In this document: positions 2,227-19,650 of the stretch, in pieces | Numbering within the stretch: the first letter of the stretch is position 1 | How the letters are laid out: each line of letters starts with the position of its first letter | Origin: a virus | DNA length: 21,289 bases | Virus record (IMG/VR): IMGVR_UViG_3300045954_000063 | Location: 1-21,289 of that record | Direction: 5' to 3' (one strand) | Program-made: the position numbers and the translations under genes | The notes under the pieces: model-generated | Seen by the model: the letters and a program-made list of their open reading frames with translations, nothing else | Databases searched by the model: none | What the model was told of the DNA's origin: nothing

Positions 2227-2652
2227 GTGAGTAAAGAACTATCAATTTTAATCCCGACGGAAATTTTTAAGTTGAGAGATGAAAAAGTAGTTTCAATTGA
2301 TCCTTTTACTTTCAAACAATTTCCTGTTGCTTTAGGAATTCTTGAAAAATACTTTATGGCTTTTTCAGGAGAAATTACTACCGACAGTATTGTTGTAATG
2401 GTATTTGACAAAATTAATGAAGATTATTCGTTACTTAAGGATCTTTGTACTTTGATTAAACTTTGTACAAAGCTAGAGGACGCGGATCTTGATGGAATAG
2501 CTTATGATGAGGTTTTTTCGATTTTTACCGTAATTGTTCGGCAAAATATGGATTTTTTCAACCGGATAGGGAAAACCTTAAACCCTCAAAGGGAGGAAGA
2601 AAAAACCTCAGCACAACTAGAAATGACTGGGGACTTAAAGTTAGCCGCTTAA
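2227..2652 (+). CDS. Tail assembly chaperone, gpG-like (unshifted product)
   Basis: This 141-aa protein is a candidate tail assembly chaperone that helps the TMP fold and recruits tube subunits. It starts with GTG at 2227, 11 bases after the tube gene stop, behind an AGGAG ribosome binding site. It is acidic and mostly helical, with a hydrophobic core region (residues 45-105) and a polar tail. The assignment comes from its place between tube and TMP, its length (lambda gpG is about 140 aa) and the presence of a second, otherwise start-less open frame that continues it by a -1 shift. A T-TTT-TTC slippery heptamer lies in codons 109-111. Confidence 0.75.
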   Translation: MSKELSILIPTEIFKLRDEKVVSIDPFTFKQFPVALGILEKYFMAFSGEITTDSIVVMVFDKINEDYSLLKDLCTLIKLCTKLEDADLDGIAYDEVFSIFTVIVRQNMDFFNRIGKTLNPQREEEKTSAQLEMTGDLKLAA

Positions 2653-2840
2653 TCCGTTTTGGCCATCGGTTTACGGATATTGAAAACTATACGGCTGCTC
2701 AAATTAGATTGTTTGAGCAGTCGATAATTGCTATAGAATCTCAAGAAAGAATAGCCAGAATTCAAGATACTTCTATTGGGTCAAATGGTACGGAAAAATC
2801 AATTAAACAAACAATCAAATTGTTAGAAAATTATGGCTGA
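2227..2840 (+). CDS. G-T tail assembly chaperone fusion made by -1 programmed frameshift
   Basis: The frame one base behind the G frame is open from before 2523 to a TGA at 2838-2840 and has no ATG, GTG or TTG start in its first two-thirds. A canonical slippery heptamer T TTT TTC (2553-2559) is in phase with the G codons (gaT TTT TTC). A -1 shift there would join 111 G codons to 93 T codons, a 204-aa fusion. The T part contains an aromatic/basic block (DWGLKVSRLIRFGHRF) and a helical C-terminus, looking like a real protein domain, and it fills the 2653-2832 gap that would otherwise be empty. It overlaps the TMP start by 8 bases, which would couple TMP translation to it. G plus G-T upstream of the TMP is the conserved arrangement of long-tailed phages. 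The exact slip site is inferred. Confidence 0.72.
2553..2559 (+). promoter_or_regulatory. Ribosomal -1 slippery heptamer (T TTT TTC)
   Basis: This is the only canonical X XXY YYZ heptamer I found in phase in the region where the G and T frames overlap. Weaker candidates are A-AAA-ACC near 2609 and C-TTA-AAG near 2635. Confidence 0.6.
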
Positions 2841-5800
2841 CTATCGCGGTTTCCAAGGGGTCGTAGCAGCAATTGAACGGTTAAAGGAAACGGTTCAATC
2901 GGAATCAGCCGCCAATTCACTTATCAGTCGCGCTATTAGGGCGGATCTAAGAACCCAGATATCAGTCGTTAATCGCTTAGAAAAACTTGTACTAGGGGTT
3001 AAGCAATCAATTAAAACCCCTAGTACAAAAGTTAATTCCTTTGTCAGCAAAGATTTGGGACAACAAATCGGGTTACAAATTGCCAAGGAATTAAGGGCTA
3101 AGCCAGTGAACGTGAAGATCCAAGAATCTTTATTTGGGGCAATAACTAGGGGTGCTAAAGAAGGCTTAGGGCAAGGATTTAGTTATCAGATTGTCAAGGG
3201 GTTTGATAAGGCTGTAAAGCGGAATATTGGGGTTAATTTTGAATCGGCTGGTTTTGGTGCGGGTAATGTAGCGACCAATCCAAGACAAGCAATTGTCGAT
3301 GCAATCAAGAGCAGAAAGGAGTGGCAAGCCAAAAATAAAGGTTTGAGAGAAGCTTTTCGGTTATCAAAAACAGAAAATCCTGATATTAAAGCGGATAAAG
3401 AAAATATTTTTGTTGTTGGAGGGGCTGATCAAGTAGAGGGAAGGGGGGGAATAAATGTTAAGAGGAAATTGATTAACCAGTTAGGGCGAGACAAAAATAT
3501 AATTCCAGTAGAAAATAAAGAATCAGATGTTAGTTTAAGCGATCAAGAATCAGCTTTCATTAATAGCATTTCTAACACTTCAAATAGAGACGATTTTCAA
3601 TCTTTAGGCAGAAGTGTAAAACTAGGAGTAACTCAATTAAATCAAGGTTTGATCAGGGGTTACAATAATGATGCCGTTAAGTTAGCCAGCAAAGTTATTG
3701 CAGCTAAAAGAAAAAACCCTAACGCAAAAATAAAACTAGCTGGTTATTCTGATGGTGGACGAATAGTCGATGAAGCTATTGCCATATTAGAAAATGCAGG
3801 AATTAACGATGTAACGGGGGTAGGAATTGGAACTCCAGAAATAGGAACATCTATTGCTAAAAAGAACTATCAGGGTTTCTTAGGAGAAAAAGATCTAGTT
3901 AGAAAGAATTTCCCTATGGTTTTATTTCCTAATAAAAAAGCTGAACAGGAAAGGCTATTAAACTTAAAAAATCAACCAAATGCAGATTTATCTGGACATG
4001 ATTTATCAGAATATTTGAATCATCTTACTGTCATGAAAGAGGGTTTTAATTCTATAGGCTCTCAAGCCGAAGGAGAAATTAAAACTTATTTAAAAGGCAT
4101 AACAGAATATTTTGAAAAAGTCAAAGAACAAATACAATCAATTAAATCTGACACAAATATAGAACCAGTAAAAGCAGAAAAAATAAAAGAGGCTTTTGTT
4201 AAAGAATTAGACCAAATTGGGAAAGAACTAGAAAATGGACTAAAAGAAATATTAAAGGTTGACTCCAGTAATAGCCTTGCAACAGAAACTGAAAAATTAA
4301 TTTCTCAGCAAAAAAAACTAAAAGCACAAGGTTTAGAAGTAATTAATAATAAATTAAATCAACCTAGTAACGCTCCATCAAAATTATCTCTTAAAGATAA
4401 ATATACTATCGCTCTCGATAAATTTATTAAAGATGCTCAAAAGACGGCAGAAGCTAAAATTAAAGGCATTATTCCTAATTATTCCGATTTAACCAGTAAT
4501 CAAAAACAACAACGGGCTAGAGAATTTTCTGCACAATTAAACAAAGATGTCAAAAAATTCAGAGACGCAATTATTAATAAAGATAGGGAGTTAGCAAAGG
4601 AATTAGGGGAAAAGATTTTAAAAGATTCCCAAGCTATCAAAAAAGTATATGATGATTTAATTGAAGTTTTACCAGAAAATAGCCAGGATTTGCGAAGTGT
4701 GCGGGGGCTGAAAGGAAACCTCACGGCTATTCAAAGCGAGGTCATCAAGGGGTCTAAAGGGAAGGGACGGGCCCAAATTGGTTTGACTCAATTAATTGAT
4801 GAAGCCAACACTACTGGAGTTGATGTCAGTAGGGGCTTTAATCAAGGCATTGAAGACAGTTTGGCAGAAATTGAAGCAGCAGGGGTAGACTTAGGAGAAA
4901 CGGCTTTACAAGGGGCTAAGGATGCGTTAGATATTGCCTCACCTTCAGGAAAATTTGAGGATGTTGCTGAAAACTCAGTTCAAGGTTACATCAATGGTTT
5001 GAAAGCAAAAGCAGGAGCTTTAATTAATAATGTCAAAAATTTATTTTCAGGTGCGGTAGATGGTGCAAGAGGTGGCAGTCTTGATAGTATTGGGGAAGCT
5101 GTAGGAGATGTAGATTTAACAATTTCTAGTTTAATTAATCAAGCTTCAGAATCAATCAATGGCTTTTTTAATTCTTTGACTGAAAAATTTCCTATACTTG
5201 GAGAATTCAAAGATTTATTGATTGGTGTTGGTGCTTGGTTTGCTTTTAACCAAATTGTAGAAACTATTGTTGGTTCCCTAACTCAATTAGCTAATAGCAG
5301 TTTTTATGCTGTTGTTCAATTTGAAGGAATACAACGAGCCATGACGGCTTTAACGGGAAGTTCTCAAAAAGGAGGCAAAGGGTTAAATTTTGTTTCTAAA
5401 GAAGCTAGGAGATTAGGACTTGATTTAAAAACAGCAGAAGAAAATTATTTGGGGTTAGTTGGGGTTACTCGTTTTACGCCTTTAGAGGGATTTCAAACCA
5501 ATAAATTATTTTCTACTTTATCAAAGACAGCAGCAATTAGAGGCTTATCAAATGAGCAACAGTCTAGAATGTTTGCAGCTATTAACCAAGCAATTTCTAA
5601 AAGAAAATTAAGTGCTGAGGAAATAAGAGGACAATTAGGTGAAATTCCTGGTTTAGCTTTTGAATCAACTTTGGCAAGAAGTTTAGGGGTTAGCCCCTCC
5701 CAATTAAATCAATTGATGGAGCAAGGGTTATTTGCTGAAGATGTTTTTCCTAAAGTGGTTGCACAATACGCAGCAGAAAATAACGCAATCTCAGGCATTT

Positions 5801-8800
5801 CTGAAACAACAACCCAATCAATTAATAGGTTAAATAATGCCGTTTTAACTTTACAAAGAGGCTTTGCTGGTTGGGTTGAAGGAAGCAAAGTGTTAATTGA
5901 GGTTTTAGCTAATATTGTTGAGTTTGTTAATAAAAATAGTGCTGGACTGGTTAAGTTCTTATCCGTCGCCACCCTTTACGCATTTTCAGAAGCGGTAATA
6001 TTTATCGGTAAGGTTTTAACCAAAAGTGTGACGGCTCAGACACTTTTTGCTCAAGGATTTTTGTTATTAAAGTCAGCAATTAGAGGTTTAATCCCTGAAT
6101 TAATTAATTTCTTAAAGCAATTTATTTTATTAACCTTGGCTATAGAAGCATTTAGCAATGTTTTGACAATTTTAAACAATGGTTTTCCTGAATTACAAAA
6201 AGATATTGAAAAAACTCGTAATCGTGTAGAAAGTTTAGAAGCGGCGTTTAACAAATTAGCTAAAGCAGGAGAAGCGGCTAACAAGAATCTTCCCATTAGT
6301 GATCAAGATGTTTGGACTGATAGATCCTTAAATATTTTTGGCTGGAACACTGGGTTAAAATTAGAGCCAATTAGAGACGTATTAGGACTTAAAACTTTAG
6401 GAGCTAAAGAGGCTGAAGATTTCCAAATTGGGGTCAGTAATTTAGTTACTGGGATTGATAGCAACCTGAACAAAGATTCTCAAGCTAAGCAGCAATTAGC
6501 AAGAGTTCAAGAAATTGACAAACAGTTAAACATAGTTAGATCAAGGCGGTTTAACATTCCTTTAGGAGATAAAGATGCTTATAATAAATCACTGGAAACA
6601 GAGAATAAGTTACTAGAAAAGCGCGATGAACTATTAAAAGTAACGGCTCAATTTCAAAGCAATTTAGAAGCGGATAGAACAACCGTAGTTAAATATTTAG
6701 CTTTGTTAGATGAGTTAGCAGGAAAACAAGGCATTACCCGCGATGCAGAAGCACAAATCAGACAAAGTTTAGAAAGTCGTCTCAAGGATATTGATCAGAC
6801 AAAATCAACCTTTGAAGATTTGACTAGCAGCCTAGAAAGAAATATTAACGGCATTCAATTAGCTTTAAGAAACCTTAACGAGCAAGCGGCCTATTTCAAT
6901 GAAACTTTAGAACGCAATGCCACTAACGCCCGTGTGTCCTTTGTCAGAAGGGCTACTGGGAACAATACGGGGTCATCGGTCATTGGTTTGGGGCAGAACG
7001 AGTTAGAACAGCAAACCTTAGAAGCTCGGGCCGTATTTTTGGGTGATCAGTTAGGCGCGATCGCAAAGCTTTTGAGTGACCCCCAGTTTTCCAGTGTACT
7101 AGGGGAATTGCAGGGTCAGGCACAAGGTTTAGGGTTGAACCTTGAAAACACCGCGACCATTGACCGCCTGTTGCAAGAGGGCCGCAGCGCACAAGAAACG
7201 GCAGTATTAAACGCCCTGAAGCAGCAATTAGACCTTAAGAATCAATTGGGTCAAACTGAGGAGCAATTAGCGCAATCAATTCTTACCCAGAAAAACGCTT
7301 TGTTTGACTTCAATCGCACTGTAACCGATTATTTTTTCAATTTATCTCAACAAATAAAAGAGGCGCAAATTGAGACAGGACGGTTATTAGAGCAAAGTAA
7401 AACTACCGATCTCAAAACAAAGTTACAACGGGCTTTAGTGCCGGGGTCAGACACTTTTATTAATGGTTTGATTGGTCAAATTCAGGGGATTTTTGATGAA
7501 GCTGCATCTATCACAGAAAGGCTTTTTGGTCAGCAATCGTCGGTCATTCAGTTTCGGGGTGAACAGCATAGTTTAAATGCCCAACTGATAGACTTTACTC
7601 GTAATGTTAATGGGGCATCAGAAGCGGTCAAACAGTTTGCTGATGCTTTATTAGGAAGAACGGGGCAAAATACAAGTAGTAATCAACAGTTGACAGGAAA
7701 TGCCCTACCCGTTCCTGTTAATGCTCAAAACCCTCCAGGGGCAAGGGGACAATTGCCACCGCCACCGCCCCTATCCACCACAAACAACTTACGGGTGTCC
7801 TCACAAAGAAACCAAACCCCTAGTAATGCCTATCAGCCCTTTTTTCACCTGTTATTTAAAGGAGAAGGAAACATCAATTCAGCCAACAGGGGAAGGGCGG
7901 GAGACACTCCTGGCGGTTTTAGGGCAATTTTTGGGCGTAATGCGGATGAAATGACGTTAGGAGAAGTCTTGCAAGCACAAAGATCAGGCAAGGTTTTTGC
8001 TGTAGGCTTTCCCCAATTCATTCCTGGTACTTTAAGAGAAGCCGCGACCAGGACAAAAATTCCCCTGAACACTCCTTTCAACCGTCAGACTCAAGAAGCT
8101 TTGGCCATTGACTTGATCAACAATAAACGCCCTAACATTGGCCGGTATTTGAGGGGGGAGTCAAACAATTTAACAGAAGCTGCTCAAGATGCGGCTAGAG
8201 AATGGGCTGCGATCGGCTTGACTTATCCTGAAGCTGGCCGTGGTGTAAATCGTAGTCGTTACGGTGGTTTTGGGGGTAACGCCGCGTCAATCACTTCCCA
8301 GCAAGTTCAACAAGCATTACAGCAAGTTAGGTCCAACCTACAAACCCCTAGTACAACTACAAACAATTCAGTGTCTTCTCCAGACCCCCTAGTACAACAG
8401 GCAACTAACGCAACCAATACCCTAATTAACTTCAAAGGGGCTAACTTAGACTTACAAAATGCAGCTAACCGTCAAGAAATAGAGAAGTTTATTCTTAATC
8501 TAATTCAAACCAGAGAACAGATTCAAAGACAATTAGAAGACAGTTTAAGGAATACTAATAATCAAGTAATTGATGCCACTAACCAGCTAGAAGATATTAA
8601 ATCCCAGTATTCCCCTGCTACTCAAACCAGTGAGTTTGAGAAAGAAGCAAGGGCAATGGAGACTCAATTTAGAACTTTTGACAATCAATTGTTTGAACAA
8701 GAGAGAAGCTTATTAGAAAATATTAGGGGAATACAACAGTTTTCAACTCAGTCTCAAGAGGCAATTAAGGTTTTAAGGGGTACGGGTTCCCCCATTGATG

Positions 8801-10272
8801 CAGAGCAAGCAAACTTTTTAGAATCTTTAACCCCCCAGTTACAGAAAGATTTAGGGGTTTATCAGGGCTATGTTCAACAAATTCAAGCTGTCAGAAAAGA
8901 GTTGAGAGATGCCAAAGTTGACGCTAATAATTTTGTGGTAGCACAAGCACAATTAAGAGCAATTCAAAAAGAATTAGACACTTTAGGTAAAGAAGTTCAA
9001 TTGTCACAACAAAATTATAACTTTGAGTTAGAAAGAAGCGTATCCTTAGCACAGTCAAACTTACAGTTACAAAAAGACGAAATAGGAATTACACAAGACT
9101 ATGCTGATAAACCACAAGAAATGGCAAGGCAGTTAGCTATTGTCAGGGAACAAGCAAGATTAAGAGAGATTGACATTGAATACAATGTAAAAAATAATCA
9201 GTTAACCCGTCAATTACAACAAGTTAACCGAGAATTAGCTAATGTTCAAAAAACCGCTAATTTAGAAAAACAAAAAGAATTAGAGTTCATTCAATCTCAA
9301 TTACAGTTAGAACAAGAAATATTACAAATTAAGAAAGAATACCCTAATTTAGCACAACAGGAATTAGAAATACAGAAAGCACAAGAAGCGGCGCGGTTAA
9401 GAGAAATTGATATTAATAATCGGATTAATTCCGAAAGAATTAACCGACGGTCACAAATTAGAGATTTAGATAGTCAAATTGCTGAAAATGAAGCTAGACT
9501 AACCAGTGACCCTTTTGCTGCCAATGACATCAGAGAAGCTAACGCCCGTGAGAATGAAAAATTAAGGTTTGATCAACAAGTTGAACAGTTCACTCAACAA
9601 TATGCTGGCAATCCTGAATTGTTAAATCAACGCATTGGGAAAGCCTTAACAATCCATCAGCAGAACCTAGAATTAATTGACCGTCAATACTTAGATTTGG
9701 GTCAAACCATAGGCAGTAGTGTTGTTAATTCTGTAGGTTCCTTTATTGATGCTTTACGCAATGGTCAAAACGCCTTTGATGCGTTTATTGACAGTGTGTT
9801 ACAAGGTTTGGGACAAATTGGCTCTAATCTTATTGTGAGTTCAATTCAGGGGCTTTTCGGCTTTAATGGTGGGGGGTTTGCTGGAGGATTTGCTGAAGGG
9901 GGAACCGTTGCTGATGCTTTAAGAAAAGAGGGCCCCAATGGGGTGTTAGCTGTTTTCACCCCTGGGGAAGAAATTCTTAGCCTTAAAACAGGAGAAGCGC
10001 AACGTTATCAAGGGTTAAAAGAAATTTTTGGCAACAATCCTTTAAAACAGATTAATTTTTATAAAAATGGGGGGACAGTTGAGGGAAACCTGTTAAATAA
10101 TATAAGTGTACCATCACCGAGGCTAAACATTGATGATCGTCCTAGCAATCAAACAGTTAATAATTCTCGCAATTCTACAATTAATATTAATGTTACCAGT
10201 CCTAATGCTAGTTCCTTTGCCAAGAGTGAACGGCAATTAGGTCGATTGATTAGGGAGTATGAAAACCGATGA
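2833..10272 (+). CDS. Tail tape measure protein with embedded alpha/beta-hydrolase and lysozyme-like domains
   Basis: This 2479-aa protein sets tail length and is likely delivered into the host envelope. Order of regions: residues about 188-395, an alpha/beta-hydrolase fold (strand FVVGG at 193, nucleophile elbow GYSDGG with S306, then GTPEIG, D354 in GEKDLV, H389 in SGHDLSEYL); 400-640, coiled coil; about 830-1010, the conserved TMP N-terminal-type domain (FEGIQRAMTALTG, then LSAEEIRGQLGEIPG); hydrophobic helices at about 795-820 and 1030-1120; a proline-rich linker near 1640; about 1665-1796, a lysozyme/muramidase-like domain with candidate catalytic E1678 in KGEG and a GFPQFIPGT motif; 1860-2290, long coiled coil in which a segment containing ARLREIDI recurs after exactly 79 residues; then a glycine-rich hydrophobic C-terminus. 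The start overlaps the chaperone frame by 8 bases and the end overlaps the next start (ATGA). The TMP role is secure; the enzyme domains are motif-based. Confidence 0.93.
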   Translation: MADYRGFQGVVAAIERLKETVQSESAANSLISRAIRADLRTQISVVNRLEKLVLGVKQSIKTPSTKVNSFVSKDLGQQIGLQIAKELRAKPVNVKIQESLFGAITRGAKEGLGQGFSYQIVKGFDKAVKRNIGVNFESAGFGAGNVATNPRQAIVDAIKSRKEWQAKNKGLREAFRLSKTENPDIKADKENIFVVGGADQVEGRGGINVKRKLINQLGRDKNIIPVENKESDVSLSDQESAFINSISNTSNRDDFQSLGRSVKLGVTQLNQGLIRGYNNDAVKLASKVIAAKRKNPNAKIKLAGYSDGGRIVDEAIAILENAGINDVTGVGIGTPEIGTSIAKKNYQGFLGEKDLVRKNFPMVLFPNKKAEQERLLNLKNQPNADLSGHDLSEYLNHLTVMKEGFNSIGSQAEGEIKTYLKGITEYFEKVKEQIQSIKSDTNIEPVKAEKIKEAFVKELDQIGKELENGLKEILKVDSSNSLATETEKLISQQKKLKAQGLEVINNKLNQPSNAPSKLSLKDKYTIALDKFIKDAQKTAEAKIKGIIPNYSDLTSNQKQQRAREFSAQLNKDVKKFRDAIINKDRELAKELGEKILKDSQAIKKVYDDLIEVLPENSQDLRSVRGLKGNLTAIQSEVIKGSKGKGRAQIGLTQLIDEANTTGVDVSRGFNQGIEDSLAEIEAAGVDLGETALQGAKDALDIASPSGKFEDVAENSVQGYINGLKAKAGALINNVKNLFSGAVDGARGGSLDSIGEAVGDVDLTISSLINQASESINGFFNSLTEKFPILGEFKDLLIGVGAWFAFNQIVETIVGSLTQLANSSFYAVVQFEGIQRAMTALTGSSQKGGKGLNFVSKEARRLGLDLKTAEENYLGLVGVTRFTPLEGFQTNKLFSTLSKTAAIRGLSNEQQSRMFAAINQAISKRKLSAEEIRGQLGEIPGLAFESTLARSLGVSPSQLNQLMEQGLFAEDVFPKVVAQYAAENNAISGISETTTQSINRLNNAVLTLQRGFAGWVEGSKVLIEVLANIVEFVNKNSAGLVKFLSVATLYAFSEAVIFIGKVLTKSVTAQTLFAQGFLLLKSAIRGLIPELINFLKQFILLTLAIEAFSNVLTILNNGFPELQKDIEKTRNRVESLEAAFNKLAKAGEAANKNLPISDQDVWTDRSLNIFGWNTGLKLEPIRDVLGLKTLGAKEAEDFQIGVSNLVTGIDSNLNKDSQAKQQLARVQEIDKQLNIVRSRRFNIPLGDKDAYNKSLETENKLLEKRDELLKVTAQFQSNLEADRTTVVKYLALLDELAGKQGITRDAEAQIRQSLESRLKDIDQTKSTFEDLTSSLERNINGIQLALRNLNEQAAYFNETLERNATNARVSFVRRATGNNTGSSVIGLGQNELEQQTLEARAVFLGDQLGAIAKLLSDPQFSSVLGELQGQAQGLGLNLENTATIDRLLQEGRSAQETAVLNALKQQLDLKNQLGQTEEQLAQSILTQKNALFDFNRTVTDYFFNLSQQIKEAQIETGRLLEQSKTTDLKTKLQRALVPGSDTFINGLIGQIQGIFDEAASITERLFGQQSSVIQFRGEQHSLNAQLIDFTRNVNGASEAVKQFADALLGRTGQNTSSNQQLTGNALPVPVNAQNPPGARGQLPPPPPLSTTNNLRVSSQRNQTPSNAYQPFFHLLFKGEGNINSANRGRAGDTPGGFRAIFGRNADEMTLGEVLQAQRSGKVFAVGFPQFIPGTLREAATRTKIPLNTPFNRQTQEALAIDLINNKRPNIGRYLRGESNNLTEAAQDAAREWAAIGLTYPEAGRGVNRSRYGGFGGNAASITSQQVQQALQQVRSNLQTPSTTTNNSVSSPDPLVQQATNATNTLINFKGANLDLQNAANRQEIEKFILNLIQTREQIQRQLEDSLRNTNNQVIDATNQLEDIKSQYSPATQTSEFEKEARAMETQFRTFDNQLFEQERSLLENIRGIQQFSTQSQEAIKVLRGTGSPIDAEQANFLESLTPQLQKDLGVYQGYVQQIQAVRKELRDAKVDANNFVVAQAQLRAIQKELDTLGKEVQLSQQNYNFELERSVSLAQSNLQLQKDEIGITQDYADKPQEMARQLAIVREQARLREIDIEYNVKNNQLTRQLQQVNRELANVQKTANLEKQKELEFIQSQLQLEQEILQIKKEYPNLAQQELEIQKAQEAARLREIDINNRINSERINRRSQIRDLDSQIAENEARLTSDPFAANDIREANARENEKLRFDQQVEQFTQQYAGNPELLNQRIGKALTIHQQNLELIDRQYLDLGQTIGSSVVNSVGSFIDALRNGQNAFDAFIDSVLQGLGQIGSNLIVSSIQGLFGFNGGGFAGGFAEGGTVADALRKEGPNGVLAVFTPGEEILSLKTGEAQRYQGLKEIFGNNPLKQINFYKNGGTVEGNLLNNISVPSPRLNIDDRPSNQTVNNSRNSTININVTSPNASSFAKSERQLGRLIREYENR
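2987..3028. repeat. 14-bp perfect inverted repeat within the TMP gene
   Basis: TTGTACTAGGGGTT (2987-3000) and AACCCCTAGTACAA (3015-3028) are exact reverse complements separated by 14 bases. Each arm contains the octamer CCCCTAGT that recurs across the tail genes. The repeat lies in coding sequence for residues 52-66 of the TMP. Confidence 0.9.
7057..7064. repeat. HIP1 octamer GCGATCGC
   Basis: A perfect copy of the highly iterated palindrome of cyanobacteria, within the TMP gene. It supports a cyanobacterial host. Confidence 0.85.
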
Positions 10273-11114
10273 AAATATCAACAATATCAGCTAAATTAAA
10301 AGCTGAATCCCCCACATTAACAAGAATCTGGAAAATAACTAATGGGCAAGGAAGTTTAGGGTTTACAACTTTTTCTCAAGATTTAACTATTGATGGGCTT
10401 TTGTACAAAGCCTCTTTAGGCTTTAATCCTACTGACATTGAATCCTCTGTTAATGACCCTTACAACATGGAATTAACCTCAATTCTTAATGAAAATGGGA
10501 TAACTGCCATTGATTTAAGTTCTGGTTTGTTTGATTATGCTGGTGTTTTAGTAGCGTTAGTTGACTATACTAATTTACCTAGTTCATTAACAGTAAATCC
10601 CCCTCAACATTTAGCTTTATTTTCAGGAAAAATCAATAAAATTAGTTACACCGAAGACAATTATACAGTTGAGTTAATGAGTAAAGCTAACTTATTAACA
10701 GGTAAAACTAACTGGGTCACATCAAAAACCTGTCGCTACAGATTTGGGGATGAAAAATGCGGGTACGATATTTCTGTTCAAAAAGATACTTTGTCAGTTT
10801 CAGCCCCAGGTAGTGACAATTTTCACTTTACCAGTGGCACATCTTTTTCTGATGATTTGTATACGGGTTCAACTCTGACCTGGACTACTGGGGACAATAC
10901 CGGACAAATTTTAAGAGTGATGAAATCTAATGGGCAAAATTTCTTTACTTTGACCCCTACGGTTAACCCGATTAAAGCAGGGGACAATTTTCAGGTTGTC
11001 AAGCAGTGTAACAAAACAATTGTTGACTGCAAAAAATACAGTAATTTCTTGAATTTTGGAGGGGAACCGGATTTGCCAGGAATTGACCAATACTACTCAA
11101 ACGAAGCGCAATGA
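10269..11114 (+). CDS. Tail hub protein, DUF2163/BR0599 family (GTA gp13 / lambda gpL-like)
   Basis: This 281-aa protein forms part of the tail tip ring between tube and central hub. The N-terminal two-thirds is a beta-rich DUF2163 domain. The C-terminal part is the diagnostic BR0599 region, with a TGDNTG turn, a GD-F-V-K-QC strand, and the ending NFLNFGGEPDLPG. Four cysteines, C155, C164, C247 and C254, pair as C-x8-C and C-x6-C, the pattern of the iron-sulfur binding segment known from lambda gpL and GTA hub proteins; a [4Fe-4S] cluster is therefore likely. The gene overlaps TMP by ATGA and the following peptidase gene in the same way, so all are translationally coupled. Family recognition is strong; the cluster is inference from family knowledge. 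Confidence 0.87.
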   Translation: MKISTISAKLKAESPTLTRIWKITNGQGSLGFTTFSQDLTIDGLLYKASLGFNPTDIESSVNDPYNMELTSILNENGITAIDLSSGLFDYAGVLVALVDYTNLPSSLTVNPPQHLALFSGKINKISYTEDNYTVELMSKANLLTGKTNWVTSKTCRYRFGDEKCGYDISVQKDTLSVSAPGSDNFHFTSGTSFSDDLYTGSTLTWTTGDNTGQILRVMKSNGQNFFTLTPTVNPIKAGDNFQVVKQCNKTIVDCKKYSNFLNFGGEPDLPGIDQYYSNEAQ

Positions 11115-11536
11115 CCTTTCAATCAATAATCATTGGGAAAGCCCGTGAATATTTGGGAACGCCCTATCATCATCAGGGTAGAGTCAAAGGTGCGGGTATT
11201 GATTGCGCGGGGCTGCCCATCTGTGTGGCCCGTGAGTTAAACCTGAGTAATTACGATGTTGATGGTTATGGTCGTGATGGAAGTGGTGTGGGGTTGAAAG
11301 AAGCTTTTGACTTCAACTGTATTGCCAAATCAACCTTTGATTTGGGTGATATTGTCCTTTTGAGGATCAGGTATCACCCTCAGCATTGTGGCATCATTGC
11401 CACTGATAATGAATCAAATTTCACTTTGATCCATGCTTGTCGTTCCCGTCAAAAAGTGGTTGAGGTGATCTTTGGTCAATGGTGGCGCGATCGCTTAATT
11501 GCTTGCTACGAATTCCCTAACATTCACCAGCTATGA
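11111..11536 (+). CDS. Tail-tip NlpC/P60 cysteine peptidase (GTA gp14 / lambda gpK-like)
   Basis: This 141-aa peptidase probably cleaves peptidoglycan stem peptides when the tail crosses the cell wall. The catalytic cysteine lies in GIDCAGLP (C32), the general-base histidine in QHCGI (H92) and a third polar residue in LIHAC (H108), the usual order and spacing of NlpC/P60 domains. The N-terminus ARxYLGTPYHHQG is the standard first helix and loop of this family. Length equals that of stand-alone GTA gp14-type proteins; there is no JAB/Mov34 domain as in full-length lambda gpK. It overlaps both neighbours by ATGA and sits right after the DUF2163 gene as in gene transfer agents. A HIP1 octamer lies near its 3' end. 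Confidence 0.9.
   Translation: MTFQSIIIGKAREYLGTPYHHQGRVKGAGIDCAGLPICVARELNLSNYDVDGYGRDGSGVGLKEAFDFNCIAKSTFDLGDIVLLRIRYHPQHCGIIATDNESNFTLIHACRSRQKVVEVIFGQWWRDRLIACYEFPNIHQL
11487..11494. repeat. HIP1 octamer GCGATCGC
   Basis: A perfect HIP1 copy inside the NlpC/P60 gene. Confidence 0.85.
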
Positions 11537-13164
11537 CAAATTTTTCGGAAACGCTTTTAGACCTTGGCTACGATTACGGAACCGTCGCCACTCTTAACTT
11601 CAAGACTACCATCACTGAAACATCGGACGGTAGTGAGCAAAGGATGGCAATATGGGATCAGCCGTTGCTTAGTTTTGAGGTGGGGCAGCAAGATTTGGAC
11701 AACGACGAATTAGCTTACCTTCAAGGGTTTTTTGATGCGCGGCGGGGGAGTTTGGAGGGGTTTTTGTTTCGGGATTGGTCAGATTATCAGGTAATTTCTC
11801 AATTACTAGGGGTTGCGAATGGTAGTGTTAACCAGTTTCAGATGTACAAGTCCTACAGGATAGAAGATGCCATTGTCAACCGCGCCATCACCAAACCAAG
11901 AGAAGGAACTTTAAAAATTTACCTCAATGAAGTGGAGATGACATCGGGTTATGTCTGTGATTTTACTAGGGGGATTGTTACCTTTGAATCACCCCCGACG
12001 GGTAACTTGACTTGTGATTTTGAATTTGATGTTCCTGTGAGATTTGTTCAGGATCGGATTGATTACCGATTTAATGCAATTGAAGCTGCAACGGGGTTGA
12101 AAATTTACAGCCTAGAAAAATTATCTTTAATCGAAATTAGAGAAACTTTAACGGACAACTCACGGGGCGGAAATAGTTCCGCCCCCGTGTCCTCAACTTT
12201 AACCATTCCTTTTACCGCCCCTAATTCTAATTTGGGGACTATTATTGACTTGGGCTATGATTACGAAACTTTAGGGGGTGATGCTTACAATACAACGATT
12301 AACTCTGTATTTTCTGGTTTTGAGACTAGGCGTAGCAATTGGGTAAATGCTAAAGGTAGTTATGACGTAGGACAGCGAACTTTAGTTAGAAGTGAATTAA
12401 ATCAATTGATTGCTTTATTTAGAATTTGTCGAGGGCAATTTACCAGATTCTTTTACAAAGATTGGAAAGATAACGATTTTAAAGTAGTCAGATTTGGAGA
12501 AGATTCTATTAGCTTTGTTTTTAAAGCAATTAATAGAACGACTAAAGAGGTTATTTTTGATTTATCAGGGGTTGCCCTAATTAGAGTTTCTGCCATTCCT
12601 ACTGATTCTTATTTGATACCCTTGTTTGATACCAGTGGCTCAATGGGCGATTCTATTCCTTTTATTGAGCAAGCTTTAGAAGATCTAAGACCTTTGCTAA
12701 AACAAGCTGTTTATCTGACTGATGAGGCAACAAATAAATACTTTTTGCAACCGTCCAATTTTGGTGATGAAAGATATTTAAAAAGAATGGCGCAAGATTA
12801 TCGCTATTCAGAATTAGACAGAAAAAGGTTTATTTTTCTAATTTTTGAAAATGAAGCTAATCCCGTTTATCACGGTACAACTAGAAATTTAAACAATGAA
12901 CCTACTGAAACCTATTTAACTGATTTAGCCGATTTTCAAGAAGCTTATGCTGACATTGAATTTTTCAAAGCTTTAATTGTGATTCCTGTTCCTGATCCCA
13001 TTGAACAAAGAATAGAAAGCTTTATCGGTCAAGTGTCTGATGCTATTGGGGGAACTAATGGTTATACTCCCTTGAGTCAATACAATGTCTCAAAAGAGGT
13101 TTTACCTGATGATACAACCGCAAGCGTCTATCTAGGTTTGCTGTTAACTTATTTGCAACTATAA
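11533..13164 (+). CDS. Distal tail protein: two DUF2460 domains fused to a von Willebrand A domain
   Basis: This 543-aa protein has three parts. Residues 1-205 form a full DUF2460 (TIGR02217) domain: SDGSEQRMAIWDQP, the FFDARRGS and FLFRDWSDYQ motifs, and a C-terminal strand set ending FDVPVRFVQD. A low-complexity linker (207-225) encodes a palindromic DNA repeat. Residues 230-355 form a second, more divergent DUF2460 copy (ETRRSNWVN, YDVGQRTL, FTRFFYKDWKDNDF). Residues 360-540 look like a vWA domain: a hydrophobic strand leads into DTSGSMG (D366, S368, S370), the metal-binding MIDAS motif, followed by an amphipathic helix and later strands (RKRFIFLIF, FFKALIVIPV). DUF2460 proteins form the distal tail ring in gene transfer agents; vWA domains commonly bind protein ligands through Mg. 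An adhesion role is inferred. The stop overlaps the convergent minus-strand gene by 6 bases. Confidence 0.82.
   Translation: MTNFSETLLDLGYDYGTVATLNFKTTITETSDGSEQRMAIWDQPLLSFEVGQQDLDNDELAYLQGFFDARRGSLEGFLFRDWSDYQVISQLLGVANGSVNQFQMYKSYRIEDAIVNRAITKPREGTLKIYLNEVEMTSGYVCDFTRGIVTFESPPTGNLTCDFEFDVPVRFVQDRIDYRFNAIEAATGLKIYSLEKLSLIEIRETLTDNSRGGNSSAPVSSTLTIPFTAPNSNLGTIIDLGYDYETLGGDAYNTTINSVFSGFETRRSNWVNAKGSYDVGQRTLVRSELNQLIALFRICRGQFTRFFYKDWKDNDFKVVRFGEDSISFVFKAINRTTKEVIFDLSGVALIRVSAIPTDSYLIPLFDTSGSMGDSIPFIEQALEDLRPLLKQAVYLTDEATNKYFLQPSNFGDERYLKRMAQDYRYSELDRKRFIFLIFENEANPVYHGTTRNLNNEPTETYLTDLADFQEAYADIEFFKALIVIPVPDPIEQRIESFIGQVSDAIGGTNGYTPLSQYNVSKEVLPDDTTASVYLGLLLTYLQL
12154..12189. repeat. Palindromic repeat inside the DUF2460-vWA gene (copy 1)
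   Basis: GACAACTCACGGGGCG (12154-12169) is identical to 19786-19801. It continues into a near-perfect hairpin, CACGGGGCGGAA (12161-12172) with TTCCGCCCCCGTG (12177-12189), one bulged base and a 4-base loop. In the protein it encodes the linker between the two DUF2460 copies. Confidence 0.75.
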
Positions 13165-14322
13165 GGCATAACTAATAGCAATAATACTATTATTAGGAAT
13201 CGAACCAGAAGACAAAGGTGTAACTGTTCCTTCAGTTAAATTAACCGTAAAATCAGTATTTAAAACAAAAGTTGTATTAGCATTGTAGACATAGTAAACG
13301 GCCGATAAATTATTGTCGATGGCAATGGCTTGGTTTAAAACAGCATAAGTCCTTTTGATTCGACCAATGACATGGCCCATATCTCCCACATCCCCAGACA
13401 AAATCAATTCCTCATAGGACAAAATACGTTGACCGATTTCAGCATTTCTTATTCCACTTTTTGCGTATTTAACAATTCCTCTGGTATACAAGGGAACCCC
13501 AATGATTTTGTTAGCTTTCAAACCAGAACCTGTTGAGCCATAAACATTAACTGCACCCCGTCCTGACACCAAATAATAAGGACAAGGCACGGGTTTGTTG
13601 TTGACCCCATTAAAAAACCCGTTGCTTTGGTAATAGGCCATATTGGTCGAAGTTGTGACATCGTTATCACCACTTAAGGCGTACACCCCGTTTGTCACAT
13701 AATCAAGCATCCCCCAGGGACGGTTAGCCGTCCCAGATGTTAGCCAGTTCACTGCTGAGGAATAAGTATCTTTTACCGCGTGCCATTTAACAGATTGAGT
13801 GTGAAAATCTCTAGCTAAATAAGTTTCTAACCATCCGCTATTAGTCAAAAGACCGCAAGAAATGGCGTACAAATCGCTGTTTGCTGCCCTTTTTGTTAAA
13901 AAGCCAAAATGCGAACCTGTCCAGGTACTAGGCACATCATTTGCATTAAAAATGCTGAAAGAAGCCGCGCTTTTGTCGCAACCTAAAAATAAATAAAAGT
14001 CATTGGTTGCCGAATAAGGCAGCAAAATATTAGGCGATAAAAAAGTATTTGTCCCGTCAAAATCTCCGTTTAAAATGATGTTTTTTGTTCCCGAATTGTT
14101 GGTTAATTTGACCCAGCAATTATCTGTACGAATAAAGCCACCAAATTCATCATAAACATCATACTCCCCCTTAGCCACAAAAAAACTGGGAATGCTGTTG
14201 TTAGTAATAGTCCATCCTGCTGACTGTAAAGCGTCTTTTAGTCCATTTAAGACATCTTCCCCATCGTTGCATAACGTCCCAAAAAAATAAGGAGGTTGTC
14301 CCTGTAAAAAAACTTCTGGCAT
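13159..14322 (-). CDS. Tail fibre/tip-like protein (putative)
   Basis: This 387-aa protein is of no family I can name with certainty. I start it at the ATG at 14322-14320, because it overlaps the stop of the upstream gene (TAATG) and has purine-rich GGGGAG and AAAGG stretches just upstream; an in-frame ATG seven codons earlier (14343) is possible. The sequence is rich in Gly, Ser, Asn and aromatic residues with few charges, typical of surface-exposed phage fibre or tip proteins. The C-terminal 40 residues (NTDFTVNLTEGTVTPLSSGSI) share a module with the tail tube protein and the hub protein. It is the last gene of a three-gene minus-strand operon led by the hub gene and converges on the DUF2460-vWA gene with a 6-base overlap and no terminator between them. 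Role inferred from context and composition. Confidence 0.6.
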   Translation of the reverse strand: MPEVFLQGQPPYFFGTLCNDGEDVLNGLKDALQSAGWTITNNSIPSFFVAKGEYDVYDEFGGFIRTDNCWVKLTNNSGTKNIILNGDFDGTNTFLSPNILLPYSATNDFYLFLGCDKSAASFSIFNANDVPSTWTGSHFGFLTKRAANSDLYAISCGLLTNSGWLETYLARDFHTQSVKWHAVKDTYSSAVNWLTSGTANRPWGMLDYVTNGVYALSGDNDVTTSTNMAYYQSNGFFNGVNNKPVPCPYYLVSGRGAVNVYGSTGSGLKANKIIGVPLYTRGIVKYAKSGIRNAEIGQRILSYEELILSGDVGDMGHVIGRIKRTYAVLNQAIAIDNNLSAVYYVYNANTTFVLNTDFTVNLTEGTVTPLSSGSIPNNSIIAISYAL

Positions 14323-14543
14323 TAGTAAACCTTTACTCCCCAATTAAATAAAAGAACTTTGTGACCTTCTAAATGTAATTCGTCTTCTGTTATGGCAAAA
14401 TTAGCCGTAATTAAAGGAGGAAAAGCAGGAAAAAATTTAACAAAACTTTCTTCAAGCAATAAAGATGAGTCTCTATCGGTAATTTTAATCAAGGTATTTG
14501 TTCCTTGATTACCTAATGTTTGCGGATAAGTAATAATGGTCAA
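14322..14543 (-). CDS. Small protein of unknown function in tail-tip operon
   Basis: This 73-aa protein, not recognised, lies between the hub gene and the fibre-like gene. It appears to start with TTG at 14543, overlapping the stop of the hub gene (TTGA), and ends in TAATG overlapping the next start, so all three minus-strand genes are translationally coupled. It contains a central hydrophobic/proline stretch (FVKFFPAFPPLITANF) and an acidic segment but no signal peptide or clear membrane helix. Its position suggests a tail-tip accessory or fibre assembly protein, which is inference only. Confidence 0.55.
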   Translation of the reverse strand: MTIITYPQTLGNQGTNTLIKITDRDSSLLLEESFVKFFPAFPPLITANFAITEDELHLEGHKVLLFNWGVKVY

Positions 14544-17239
14544 GATTCGTAAACTCCATTTATGGCAAAATCATACTGGGTTCCACTATATTTTATGGTT
14601 ACTCTTCTCCATTGATCAACTAAACTTAATTTTACTTTAACATCACCTTGAGCTATTTCTTTAATGTTTAATGCCAGAGAACCATTGCCAGTATGTAAAA
14701 TTTCAAAGCTGGTTTTTGTCGTGGGATTAGAAGGCAAAATAATAGTCCTGTCTGTTCCTGTTGGTGCTAGATGTTGATGGTAAAAATCGTTATTAGTTAG
14801 CTGTTTATCTTGAGACAAACTTTGTATATTGAACTGAAATCTATCAAAAATAATTAAGAATTCAGTAGTTGATTGTCCCGTCCCTCCTGGGGACGTAACT
14901 GTAATTTTGCCTGTAACGGTATTACTGGCCAGGGTAGCGGTGATCTGCTGGTCGCTGTTAATCACAAAACTGGTCACAGCTATTCCTCCGACGGTGACGG
15001 CTGTTACATCGGTTAATCCTTGTCCAAAAATCTTGACCTGTTCGCTTACTCCTCCCTGAGTCGGGCTAAACCCGCTAAGTATGGGGCTTGTGACTTCAAA
15101 AGCATTTCCTTGGATCAGCAAGCTAACGGGTGAAACATCTTGCAAGGTTTGACCGGCTGAAACCGCCTTAAAGTAAAGAGTTTTTCCAATATCACTTTGG
15201 GAACCGGTCAAAATCAAACGATAGCCACTGAGTAAATAAAAGGTTTCGTTGCCCCCATGATTGTTCACCCGTCCATAAGTTCCCCTTAAACCCCTAGTAA
15301 GACCTGATAACCGATAATTGCGACCGCCTTGTCCCGTAACCCCTAGTAAAGTTGCCGTCTTGAAGTCCAGAATCTCATTACCCACCAAAGCCCTATTTAC
15401 TCCCAATTCAAAATCAGTCTGGGATATAGTGGCCAGTTCAGCATGACTGGGAATGGTGATATCAAGGGTGTTAGTGGTATCAGTAGAGGATAGGGGCGTG
15501 TGACCCCCTAGTACAGTTTGACAAGTGCCAAACACTGATCTGGTGATCAGTGATCCTGCAAATTCAAAAGTTGCTTGATTATTGCGGCTTACATAAACCG
15601 CCGCATTTCTCCAACTGCTGTCTCCATCCCCAAAGACATATAATCCTTTATTATCGGTGTCATAGGCTGTTGGGATGTCCAAAACTCTCAGGGTGGTATT
15701 ACTAGGGGTTGGCAATGGGGTACTTTTGGGAATTGCCGGCCCCGATGTAGTAATGGTCACTACTGTCCCGTTGCTAATACTTCCCCCATTAAGGGGCGTG
15801 ATTGTGCCATTGGTCAAGTTGACGCTGTAATCAACCCCTTGGGTGTAAGTTGTTTGTCCCGATGTGACAGTCGTCACCCCATAGATTGTCCCCAGTGAGA
15901 TTGGACTGCCTTTAGTGGCTGTTCCGGTAAAAATGTTTTCGGAAGGAGAAGTATAGTCAAAGCCAAAAATTTGCGCTTGATATTGCCAAGATTTAATTGT
16001 GACCAGATTAGATGTCGTGATTCCCAGTTCCTTGATCTGGATCATTTTTCTCACTTGATTGATCTCAATTTCAACTACGTCCCCAGGTTCTAGAACAGCG
16101 TAGCGCAAATTAAGAGAAAATTCTTGAACGTAGGATCGTTGCCAGCTTAGCCACAATAATTGGTTGACAATCCGTTTAGCCTCGTTAGCCGTCAAGCACC
16201 CTGAATAATCAATTGTCACTTGGTTGATATTTTCTTCTCCAAAAACAGGCGATCGCTCAACGGCTGCTAAAAGATTGTTGTCAAAATCGAGGTACTTGAT
16301 CTCATATTGAGTTGGTAAGGTTGTCGGATCTAATCGGGTTTCTTTGTATTTACTGGGTTGTCCTTCCTCACTCCCTGGTACATGAGCGGCTAAATGTCCA
16401 GGGGGAATATAGGTCAAAGATTCTGCCCTATATTGCTTTTTGAATACTAATTTATCTCCTGAATCAATTAGGTCAAAGAAAAAAACTTGACTTAATTGAT
16501 TAATTTTTTCTTGGGGTGATAAAGCATTATCAACTTGAAAACCCAAAACGTTAATATTGCTTAAATCTGAAACATCAATATCAGTTTGAGACAAATTAGG
16601 AGATTCTAAACAAATATCCTGAATAATGTCTGACAACTTTGGTTCTCTATTTTGAATAATGGCAGAAGCCTGGGGATAACCATTCCCAAAATCAGCTAAA
16701 GGCAATCTTTCAATAACAATGTAAGCCCTATGTCTATAGGGAATTTGATTTGCAACTCCTCCCAAAAATTGATCTATACTTTGGGTAGGCGTTCCTTCAA
16801 AAAACCTAGCAGAACAGCCTTGACTCGCATATTTATCGTTTAACTGTCCATCTTTCCAAAACAGTTTTCCGTTTAATCTTAATTCTTTTAAAGAATTTTG
16901 TTGTACTTCTTGAGAAAACATAAAAGCACAATCGCCATAATAGCTATAGGTCTTTTCTTCTGTAACGGTTGTTCCCCCACCTTTTCCCCCTGTAGTTTGA
17001 CTACTGGTACTGGTAGAAACTTCTTCTTTAGGGGGAAATGTTCCGTAAATCAAAATACCAGAAACTCGACCTCTACCCCAAATTTTAGTAATATAATCAC
17101 CATAGCTAGATCGGGGTTCGCTAAAGGTTTCCTGCTTATTTCTATCAACAGACTGAAAAGTTTTTTTGTTTGGGGCTAAAGCACTACTTATTAAGCCCGT
17201 TCCTACTGTTATAACCGTTCCTATCAGAAAATTAGCCAT
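14540..17239 (-). CDS. Central tail hub / host-specificity protein, GTA gp15 and lambda gpJ-like
   Basis: This 899-aa protein is the likely central fibre or hub that closes the tail and contacts the host. The N-terminal region has a hydrophobic start (FLIGTVITVGTGLISSAL), then SYGDYITKIWGRGRVSG, a glycine-rich insertion (GGKGGG, about residues 84-89) and YSYYGDCAFMFSQ, the pattern of hub proteins related to GTA gp15. The middle (about 230-420) matches Phage-tail_3-type regions: SPQEKINQLSQVFFFDL and VLEPGDVVEIEI. A shared NLTNGTITPLNGGSI module lies near residues 470-505. Residues about 716-796 form an IPT/TIG immunoglobulin-like domain (SGFSPTQGG, ITVTSPGGTG), followed by a C-terminal beta domain. 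It is about a third shorter than many GTA gp15 proteins, and I see no N-terminal TIM-barrel domain. It is the first gene of the minus-strand block, oriented against the rest of the tail genes. Confidence 0.8.
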   Translation of the reverse strand: MANFLIGTVITVGTGLISSALAPNKKTFQSVDRNKQETFSEPRSSYGDYITKIWGRGRVSGILIYGTFPPKEEVSTSTSSQTTGGKGGGTTVTEEKTYSYYGDCAFMFSQEVQQNSLKELRLNGKLFWKDGQLNDKYASQGCSARFFEGTPTQSIDQFLGGVANQIPYRHRAYIVIERLPLADFGNGYPQASAIIQNREPKLSDIIQDICLESPNLSQTDIDVSDLSNINVLGFQVDNALSPQEKINQLSQVFFFDLIDSGDKLVFKKQYRAESLTYIPPGHLAAHVPGSEEGQPSKYKETRLDPTTLPTQYEIKYLDFDNNLLAAVERSPVFGEENINQVTIDYSGCLTANEAKRIVNQLLWLSWQRSYVQEFSLNLRYAVLEPGDVVEIEINQVRKMIQIKELGITTSNLVTIKSWQYQAQIFGFDYTSPSENIFTGTATKGSPISLGTIYGVTTVTSGQTTYTQGVDYSVNLTNGTITPLNGGSISNGTVVTITTSGPAIPKSTPLPTPSNTTLRVLDIPTAYDTDNKGLYVFGDGDSSWRNAAVYVSRNNQATFEFAGSLITRSVFGTCQTVLGGHTPLSSTDTTNTLDITIPSHAELATISQTDFELGVNRALVGNEILDFKTATLLGVTGQGGRNYRLSGLTRGLRGTYGRVNNHGGNETFYLLSGYRLILTGSQSDIGKTLYFKAVSAGQTLQDVSPVSLLIQGNAFEVTSPILSGFSPTQGGVSEQVKIFGQGLTDVTAVTVGGIAVTSFVINSDQQITATLASNTVTGKITVTSPGGTGQSTTEFLIIFDRFQFNIQSLSQDKQLTNNDFYHQHLAPTGTDRTIILPSNPTTKTSFEILHTGNGSLALNIKEIAQGDVKVKLSLVDQWRRVTIKYSGTQYDFAINGVYES
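16249..16256. repeat. HIP1 octamer GCGATCGC
   Basis: A perfect HIP1 copy inside the hub gene. Confidence 0.85.
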
Positions 17240-17795: not shown

Positions 17796-18269
17796 ATGCC
17801 ATCAGCAAAAACTCTAATTTACCAGCAAGAATTACGGCAATCATCGTCCTTGTTGAAAGGAAGATTGATCGCCTACGACAACCAAGACGTGAAAAAAGAT
17901 CAGGAATACATTGCCGCTAGTGGTACGGTTGGCAATCAGCAATGGGATTCACTGTCAGCCAAGGGGCGCGGCCCCATTCCCCGATGTTCTGATGTTGGGA
18001 TAGAACATTACAACGTCAAGACTACTCCTTTTGATCGCCGTGCTACGAAGGGAATTGAAGGGCCTTTTTATCATATCCTGCCAGAATCGGTCAATATCAG
18101 GGGCATCAATCGCAGTGAGTTTGGTATTCACTTCGATGCTAATGTGCCAGGCAGTGCGGGCTGTATCGTGATCGTTAATGAACCAGCTTGGGAAGCATTC
18201 CAAAAATTGATGAGCCATTACAAACAAGCTGGTTTAGAGACGGTTCCCCTGTTTGTATTTTATTCTTAG
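17796..18269 (+). CDS. YkuD-like (L,D-transpeptidase motif) protein, candidate lysis or cell-wall enzyme
   Basis: This 157-aa protein contains FGIHFDANVPGSAGCIVI, which matches the YkuD active-site pattern: a histidine (H112), a glycine/serine turn and the nucleophilic cysteine (C123) in SAGCIVI. YkuD-fold enzymes form or cut peptide links in peptidoglycan through this cysteine. The domain is small but near the lower end of the family; no signal peptide is visible, so export would need a holin or the tail. The ATG at 17796 has no clear ribosome binding site. Pairing with the upstream membrane protein and a location just after the tail module suggest an endolysin role, but an internal structural or wall-modifying function is equally open. 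The motif is seen; the role is inference. Confidence 0.6.
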   Translation: MPSAKTLIYQQELRQSSSLLKGRLIAYDNQDVKKDQEYIAASGTVGNQQWDSLSAKGRGPIPRCSDVGIEHYNVKTTPFDRRATKGIEGPFYHILPESVNIRGINRSEFGIHFDANVPGSAGCIVIVNEPAWEAFQKLMSHYKQAGLETVPLFVFYS

Positions 18270-18356: not shown

Positions 18357-19568
18357 TTAAAACACGATCTCATCTCGCAATTTCTGAAACAATATCCTGG
18401 TTGCCATGAAGGAAACGCGGGTTATAGCGTCTTTACCGCTTGCTTTGTCGTTATCCTTCATATCATCCCATTTAGCCCCTAAATACTCCCCTAAATCGTT
18501 TCTTAATCTACTTGTTGACCGCGTAGTGACTCTGGCAAGCACCCAAGCGTAAAACTTGGATCTCAGTAATTTAGACCCTGACCATTTAATTTTCTCCTTA
18601 CCCCCTGACTGTTCTATACGGCGTGAAAGCCCAAAATAAGCCTGGAAATGCTGCAAGCTGATATTTCTTTTCTGCCAGTGATTAGATCTGCTCAAATACC
18701 GTTCAATATGAGGAAATCCATTAACTAGGAACTTCTCAAAGGGGAACACTTTGTACAAAATTAAGCCTTTCAGTCCAATACCAAAGTTAAATGGTTCTAA
18801 TGCCCTTAAATACGGGATAAACAACGGATTATCAAAGGCTTTAAGCAATTTTCCTTCAATCTCAAGCTGTCTAAGTTCCAAGGAATGATGTAGATCCGCG
18901 TGTTCTTTGGTGTAACAGCTAAAGTTAATTCCTAAGCGTTTCGCCACCGAATCATTGTATTGTCGATCTCTCATTGCCTTGACTTGTTTACCAGCCATCC
19001 ATGCTATTGCCTCGATGTACCCTTTACCGCTTGGTTTCCAAGTAAGAGCAGCTAATTCTGGGAATTCATAGGATAGACGCTGTTGTAATTGGTTTCCCAC
19101 TGCATTGATCAGCTTGTCAACCTGATAGTATTCTAGAACCAACTCACGCAAGGGCCAAACTTCTCTAATAAGATGTCCAGGTAAAAACCGCCGCCGCCCA
19201 AATTCATCAATCCATTGCGGGTCAAAGTAGGAAGCGGCTAGACACAAAGCATCATTGTCATCGTACTTGTTGGGAAACCCAAAGTGACCCCGTTGAGATT
19301 TTAAATCCGCGTGACCAACCCAATAAACGGGAATGTCATGAACTTCGCCGAATTTAGCCCAAATTTGGCTATACCAGCCCCCTGTAGGTTCCATTACTAA
19401 ACCTGTCGGGTTCATATTAAGCAATTGGTCAAAATCTTTGTGAGAAGGCTTGACCCTGAAAATAGGATGATCAGGCTTTTTGAGGTAAGCTTTGATATTT
19501 TCAGGCATAGCAACGAGTGGACAAACAACGGCTAAACCATTGCGCCCGATATCCATACCAATGATCAT
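18357..19568 (-). CDS. IS110-like DEDD recombinase (transposase)
   Basis: This 403-aa protein starts at ATG 19568 (an in-frame TTG at 19580 is an alternative). The N-terminal RuvC-like fold has all four acids of the IS110 DEDD set: D6 in IIGMDIG, E60 in VMEPTGG, and D103/D106 in NKYDDNDALCLA, corresponding to the K-x-D-x-x-D-A motif. The C-terminal half has the Tnp_20 signature: YFGLSRR, then EQSGGKEKIKWSGSKLLR with the candidate catalytic serine S321. IS110 enzymes use this RuvC plus serine pair with a bridge RNA for seekless insertion into target DNA. The sequence is divergent from typical IS110 members, especially the middle. It lies between the lysis-like pair and a replication helicase gene, oriented with the latter. 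Key residues are present, so it may be active. Confidence 0.78.
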   Translation of the reverse strand: MIIGMDIGRNGLAVVCPLVAMPENIKAYLKKPDHPIFRVKPSHKDFDQLLNMNPTGLVMEPTGGWYSQIWAKFGEVHDIPVYWVGHADLKSQRGHFGFPNKYDDNDALCLAASYFDPQWIDEFGRRRFLPGHLIREVWPLRELVLEYYQVDKLINAVGNQLQQRLSYEFPELAALTWKPSGKGYIEAIAWMAGKQVKAMRDRQYNDSVAKRLGINFSCYTKEHADLHHSLELRQLEIEGKLLKAFDNPLFIPYLRALEPFNFGIGLKGLILYKVFPFEKFLVNGFPHIERYLSRSNHWQKRNISLQHFQAYFGLSRRIEQSGGKEKIKWSGSKLLRSKFYAWVLARVTTRSTSRLRNDLGEYLGAKWDDMKDNDKASGKDAITRVSFMATRILFQKLRDEIVF

Positions 19569-19650
19569 GGAGTTATACAAGAACTATTGCATTGATCCAA
19601 CTTTTGCAACGCTTAAAAAGGTTACAATACTCCCCCAATCCCTCACTAAG

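Follow-up and report, generated by a model that had tools for sequence, protein, structure and literature searches.

The window analysed here is the whole of the IMG/VR virus record IMGVR_UViG_3300045954_000063 (21,289 nucleotides, 21.3 kb), which carries a siphophage-type tail module, and the element of interest is an enzyme-like domain embedded in its tape measure protein (TMP). The TMP is encoded by an open reading frame (ORF) of 2479 aa (2833..10272, plus strand, as are all features below unless stated otherwise), which matches Pfam TMP_3 and several PHROG tape measure families. Its identity follows from its length, from the TMP_3 core (PF20155, residues 828-1009, 5314..5859; Pfam E-value 1.4e-20) and from the tail genes lying directly at its 3' side (10269..13164), in which Pfam recognizes a phiJL001 Gp84-like hub protein, NlpC/P60 and DUF2460. 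An N-terminal backbone (residues 1-185, 2833..3387), whose start resembles that of sister TMPs in identity profiles, precedes a cassette (residues 186-407, 3388..4053) with an alpha/beta-hydrolase domain detected by Pfam Cutinase, AlphaFold, Foldseek and a profile match. A first-pass annotation, made from the sequence, had placed a complete hydrolase domain of this kind in the N-terminal part of the TMP, at 3390-4020; the location stands, and the domain is best drawn slightly longer, with the limits given here.

The sequence elements listed in that annotation are found where it had put them, namely FVVGG at residues 193-197, GYSDGG from 304, GTPEIG from 333, and the residues S306, D354 and H389. 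G196 and G197 (3418..3423) form a candidate oxyanion-hole loop after the first strand, with Gly at the second position in 26 of 28 copies. S306 in GYSDGG (3748..3750) is the predicted nucleophile, D354 in GEKDLVR (3892..3894) the predicted acid and H389 in SGHDLSEYL (3997..3999) the predicted general base. Conservation was followed in 17 TMP-fused copies, that is, the window and 16 relatives 20-46% identical to it, and in three copies fused to a MuF domain. GxSxG is present in all 17 TMP-fused copies, and both S306 and H389, the residues that the annotation had singled out to be looked for in homologues, are kept in every TMP-fused copy (17/17) and every MuF-fused one (3/3); Asp occupies the acid position in 16/17 (Glu in L075) and 3/3, respectively, so that the Ser-acid-His order is conserved, with Asp or Glu in every TMP-fused copy. 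The Ser is lost in the last copy of L006 and in L044, L045 and L046, all of which lie in separate genes and none of which is fused to a TMP. Because the triad is kept in the TMP-fused form and the Ser losses are confined to separate genes, the TMP-fused copies seem to be under selection for catalysis. Strand order, fold match and strict conservation together suggest that S306, D354 and H389 are correctly placed to form one site.

The Ser-less copies indicate that the fold may be usable without catalysis, and certain other phages are known to cleave their TMPs; both points would suit a structural or assembly domain, in which the hydrolase fold serves as a scaffold or lets the TMP process itself, with no substrate in the host. 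This explanation is nevertheless improbable, as it has to account for the retention of Ser and His in all TMP-fused and MuF-fused copies at such low identity, and for the fact that close relatives lack the region or have another in its place (see below), which would be odd for a part needed in assembly.

The fold was predicted with AlphaFold, which from the single sequence gave an unusably poor model (pLDDT 47) and with a 15-row alignment of relatives a model with pLDDT 80.2, pTM 0.81 and the alternating beta/alpha order expected of an alpha/beta-hydrolase, with the S306 elbow between strand 117-123 and helix 125-139 (numbering of the modelled segment). A Foldseek search of the PDB places Fusarium cutinases at the top (E-value 4.7e-4, probability 1.00), with TM-scores of only 0.41-0.48 and root mean square deviations of 5-9 Å. 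Among viral models (BFVD), the top match is a 1191-residue piece with 40% identity and one match is named "Tape measure domain protein [Bacteriophage sp.]"; the consecutive accessions and the lengths of two further models suggest that they are proteins of the Aphanizomenon phage CL131. At the sequence level, Pfam Cutinase (PF01083) matches the domain scanned alone with an E-value of 5.8e-6 and 26.8-27.1 bits, above the curated cut-off of 25.9, and it is matched by four of 25 family members (E-value 0.01); within the PDB, a CE5 cutinase comes closest in sequence (phmmer 0.005; family profile 1.1e-5). In the full-length TMP the Cutinase score falls to 23.2 bits, below the cut-off, and this, together with TM-scores below 0.5, is what could be held to indicate an over-read motif with no genuine hydrolase domain behind it. 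A chance origin is hardly credible, however, given the confident model, the significant fold and profile matches and the strict triad conservation across a wide family. The domain is not a chance motif, chance being excluded for practical purposes, and that a hydrolase fold with its active site is really present in the TMP is close to certain. The claim of a complete, apparently catalytic alpha/beta-hydrolase domain is thus borne out by Pfam, AlphaFold, Foldseek and conservation alike.

The cutinase family (PF01083, CE5) provides the best Pfam and PDB fold relatives and shares with the domain the GYSxG nucleophile turn and the Ser-Asp-His order. The window domain differs in its modest structural similarity and in being embedded in a phage TMP, and Cys is absent from the window TMP and from the four relative domains in which it was counted. 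As the conserved cutinase disulfides are therefore missing, membership of that family was rejected. Lysin B of actinobacterial phages is likewise a phage alpha/beta-hydrolase, with weak fold matches (E-value about 0.02) to the domain, and acts as a lysis enzyme on mycolic-acid cell walls; membership was again rejected, since lysin B is encoded by a separate lysis gene, outside the TMP, and cyanobacteria are not known to have mycolic acids. Matches to adenylate kinase and prephenate dehydrogenase in PDB sequence searches were set aside as chance, their alignments beginning past the GxSxG serine.

Pattern searches of viral and genome collections with the window domain alone found no relatives, and neither did a plasmid search. 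In a collection of 50,697 phage records, tblastn matched a single one, phage CL131, in which gp047 and gp048, immediately 5' of the TMP gene, hold four copies of the hydrolase; the CL131 virion has been studied by mass spectrometry (PMC6293099). In L006 and L002 (CL131 gp047/gp048), arrays of 4-5 hydrolase domains lie upstream of the TMP and are interspersed with repeated Cys motifs such as CKxGxxCGDxCIPKxxxC; a J-domain-like stretch is present in L006 as well. An alignment-based search retrieved IMG/VR TMPs bearing the domain (several of these loci are fragments), and a Xenococcus prophage TMP was found to hold two copies. A profile search of 390 genomes of the cyanobacterial class gave matches in 16 at E≤1e-4, of which 12 reach E≤1e-10; the genome sampling covers this one class, and rarity outside cyanobacteria refers to the phage collection and the pattern-limited scans. 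Most strong matches lie within TMPs, where the fused hydrolase is always N-terminal to the TMP_3 core. In two further ORFs (L036 and L042), each with a TMP on the same contig, the hydrolase follows a MuF domain (PF04233), and the other strong matches are separate ORFs that have no TMP_3 core. The host of the window phage is probably cyanobacterial, because relatives of known host are.

The distribution of the hydrolase does not simply follow that of its carrier. Among 26 TMP cores placed on a tree, 13 have a fused hydrolase, two have a MuF-fused copy in the same prophage and the remaining 11 lack both; the hydrolase state changes five times on the best tree, and at least two of these changes are forced by well-supported branches. 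The exchange can be seen directly in a comparison of the cassettes of L003, L004, L005, L073 and L074. The TMPs of L003 and L004 are 74-94% identical over residues 1-150 (L004 numbering) and 70-96% over residues 650-1350, and in between, across most of the hydrolase slot, identity is 19-52%; at the DNA level, residues 149-585 are unmatched. The TMP of L074 is 78-100% identical to that of L004 over residues 700-1310, and its hydrolase slot holds an ADP-ribosyltransferase (ART) instead, with PF01129 above the cut-off and a match to PDB chain 6dre_B at 1.7e-15. The latter structure, a PAAR-repeat protein that we take to be the type VI effector Tre1, is an ART effector related to the domain in the L074 slot; as a different enzyme it represents an alternative cassette and not a form of the hydrolase. 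TMPs with an ART in this slot (about residues 406-609) are encoded at 5627-15439 in L074 and at 4553-9679 in L073.

A second slot is located further along the protein. The DNA of L004 and L005 is 99.1% identical up to residue 1343, unmatched over residues 1343-1567, and then 93% identical. The contents of this slot (about 1343-1567, L004 compared with L005 and L072) differ, and those of L004 have no Pfam match. L003 carries an ART-PolyVal domain in the second slot (Pfam 1.5e-13), for which, despite the clear Pfam assignment, a PDB search with the region gave no match. The TMP frame of L003 is split into two overlapping parts, 5608-8973 and 8789-16840, either by a frame break or by an assembly error. 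In L003, L004, L005 and L074, slots 1 and 2 thus combine a constant carrier with exchangeable effector domains, and we consider it very likely that the hydrolase sits in an exchangeable TMP cassette. A third kind of module may be represented by a motif consisting of a hydrophobic residue and HExxH, usually HExxHxxQ, which is found towards the N-terminus in 10 of the TMPs examined (L003, L035, L039, L041, L055, L057, L058, L059, L075 and L076), with about zero expected from shuffling; it was examined as a pattern only. Motifs of this kind and ART-PolyVal domains turn up repeatedly in the regions of the slots. The DUF6782 metallopeptidase family covers one such motif in two of the 10, and the recurrent HExxH(xxQ) is probably a zincin-like peptidase module.

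These observations bear on the role that the first-pass annotation had suggested for the domain, that is, action on lipid, exopolysaccharide esters or the outer membrane during DNA entry. In the form of an envelope lipase or esterase, the domain would cleave cyanobacterial envelope lipids, acylated polysaccharide or another ester during ejection, letting the tail channel cross the outer or inner membrane. Its fold is in keeping with this, the nearest relatives being cutinases and lipases; one family member weakly matches Tle3, a phospholipase of the type VI secretion system; and wall-cutting domains are known from TMPs. Such a function is harder to reconcile with a close sister TMP that has an ART in the same slot, with no obvious use in envelope crossing, with the absence of the domain altogether from 11 of the 26 related TMPs, and with homologues that are fused to MuF or encoded as separate genes upstream of the TMP. 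Envelope opening as originally worded is therefore unsupported in view of the ART swap and of the MuF contexts; it is still a live rival, with a minor share of the probability.

The exchange of the cassette for an ART and the fusion of homologues to MuF favour instead an injected effector, and exchangeable enzymes set in a TMP backbone that stays constant have the layout of an effector carrier. TMPs in general are virion proteins, and ADP-ribosyltransferases require NAD+, which is cytoplasmic; because of this requirement, a slot that accepts an ART most plausibly reaches the cytoplasm. The hydrolase is hence best read, with fair confidence, as an injected polymorphic serine-hydrolase effector, whose substrate, delivery and activity are deduced from context. 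We give somewhat less weight, still on the favourable side, to the broader proposal that the cyanobacterial siphophage TMP is a polymorphic effector-delivery device, in which at least two exchangeable slots N-terminal to the core carry hydrolases, ARTs or metallopeptidases that are ejected with the DNA, and in which the hydrolase family would constitute a new class of injected serine-hydrolase effector.

The mechanism envisaged begins with a TMP that would be made with the cassette built in and packed into the tail. At infection the TMP would exit the tail, a wall-cutting region would aid the crossing of peptidoglycan, and the N-terminal cassettes would enter the cell with the DNA or just before it. 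A region of the window TMP that could possibly supply the TMP's own wall-cutting domain, as a guess, is the conserved stretch of residues 1664-1855 (7822..8397), which matches phrog_37890, a PHROG of unknown function, at 1.2e-46; it has neither a Pfam nor a PDB match, which leaves a wall-cutting role unconfirmed. Once inside, S306, D354 and H389, a machinery backed by conservation, would cut a host molecule at an ester, thioester or acyl-lipid bond, and the resemblance to cutinases, lipases, thioesterases and DUF676 makes a lipid or acyl-ester the best guess for the substrate. The outcome would favour the incoming phage through host take-over or the disarming of a defence, and the ARTs and HExxH peptidase-like modules seem to play the same role in sister TMPs. 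Cassette exchange between related phages is observed, and an arms race may be the reason why cassettes are replaced by recombination.

Several points weigh against the effector reading. The nearest TMP_3 core to that of the window is about 62% identical, too distant to show a swap in the window's own lineage. The arrival of TMPs, or of TMP N-termini, in the cytoplasm is itself part of what we infer. Finally, there may be no room in the tail tube, beside the remaining TMP, for a folded domain of about 220 residues, which makes its packing a difficulty for this reading.

Parts of this picture have precedents. The polyvalent proteins that Iyer et al. (2017; PMC5512222) described in phages and conjugative elements are large, are injected with phage DNA and unite disparate enzymes, with ART, zincin peptidase and lysozyme among them. 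The ART-PolyVal domain of L003 is a feature shared with them, and the window TMP combines its hydrolase with the possible, unproven wall-cutting region, as sister TMPs combine the hydrolase with ART-PolyVal, HExxH or both; the differences are that the carrier here is a TMP and the enzyme an alpha/beta-hydrolase. In the main text of that article, searched by word starts, "tape measure", "hydrolase", "lipase" and "esterase" were not found. MuF is a known injected carrier, and MuF fusions are delivered effectors (PMC5512222). The MuF-fused effectors of temperate phages have a parallel in L036 and L042, in which the same hydrolase family is joined to MuF, whereas the window and most relatives have the TMP as carrier. 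In polymorphic toxin systems, Zhang et al. (2012; PMC3482391) described lipase-like alpha/beta-hydrolase effectors, Tox-ABhydrolase-1/2/3, some of which are tied to base-plate modules of phages. These were set apart from the present domain by description, the Tox domains being C-terminal and the TMP cassette internal. Toxin alpha/beta-hydrolases tied to phage-like modules (Tox-ABhydrolase-1), as well as polyvalent and MuF carriers, are thus already known; in the open-licence papers searched, we found neither an account of exchangeable enzymes carried by TMPs and swapped between close relatives nor one of this hydrolase family.

Several further features of the window were noted. A small ORF just 5' of the TMP gene (2227..2652) is tentatively assigned to the tail-assembly chaperone from its position and from a -1 frame. 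In the interval 2227-2839, an overlapping -1 frame is open up to the TMP start, as in the programmed frameshifts of tail chaperones; no canonical slippery heptamer of suitable phase was identified in this interval. Downstream, the DUF2460 tail protein (11533-13164) contains DTSGSM in its C-terminal part, resembling the von Willebrand A metal-binding motif, and at 13159-17239 tail-type genes, including one for a tail protein like the gene-transfer-agent protein Rcc01698, are encoded on the minus strand, opposite to the TMP operon. A 157-aa ORF at 17796-18269 bears GIHFDANVPGSAGCIVI, an L,D-transpeptidase-like catalytic stretch that has no Pfam match, and a similar stretch, GFHLEDLQRGSAGCLVF, is present in the interior of the L003 TMP. 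The tail module has mobile-element genes on both sides, a TnpB-like protein, judged by eye, at 3-650 and an IS110-type transposase (PF02371) at 18357-19580, both on the minus strand.

Injected phage effectors are known from head and MuF-type carriers. If the reading proposed here is true, the conserved tail-measuring job of the TMP would coexist with a fast-changing set of weapons, and the additional N-terminal stretches found in many cyanophage TMPs would be a place to seek enzymes of host take-over and counter-defence. The fate of the TMP ends during infection would also become testable, with the enzyme as a reporter.
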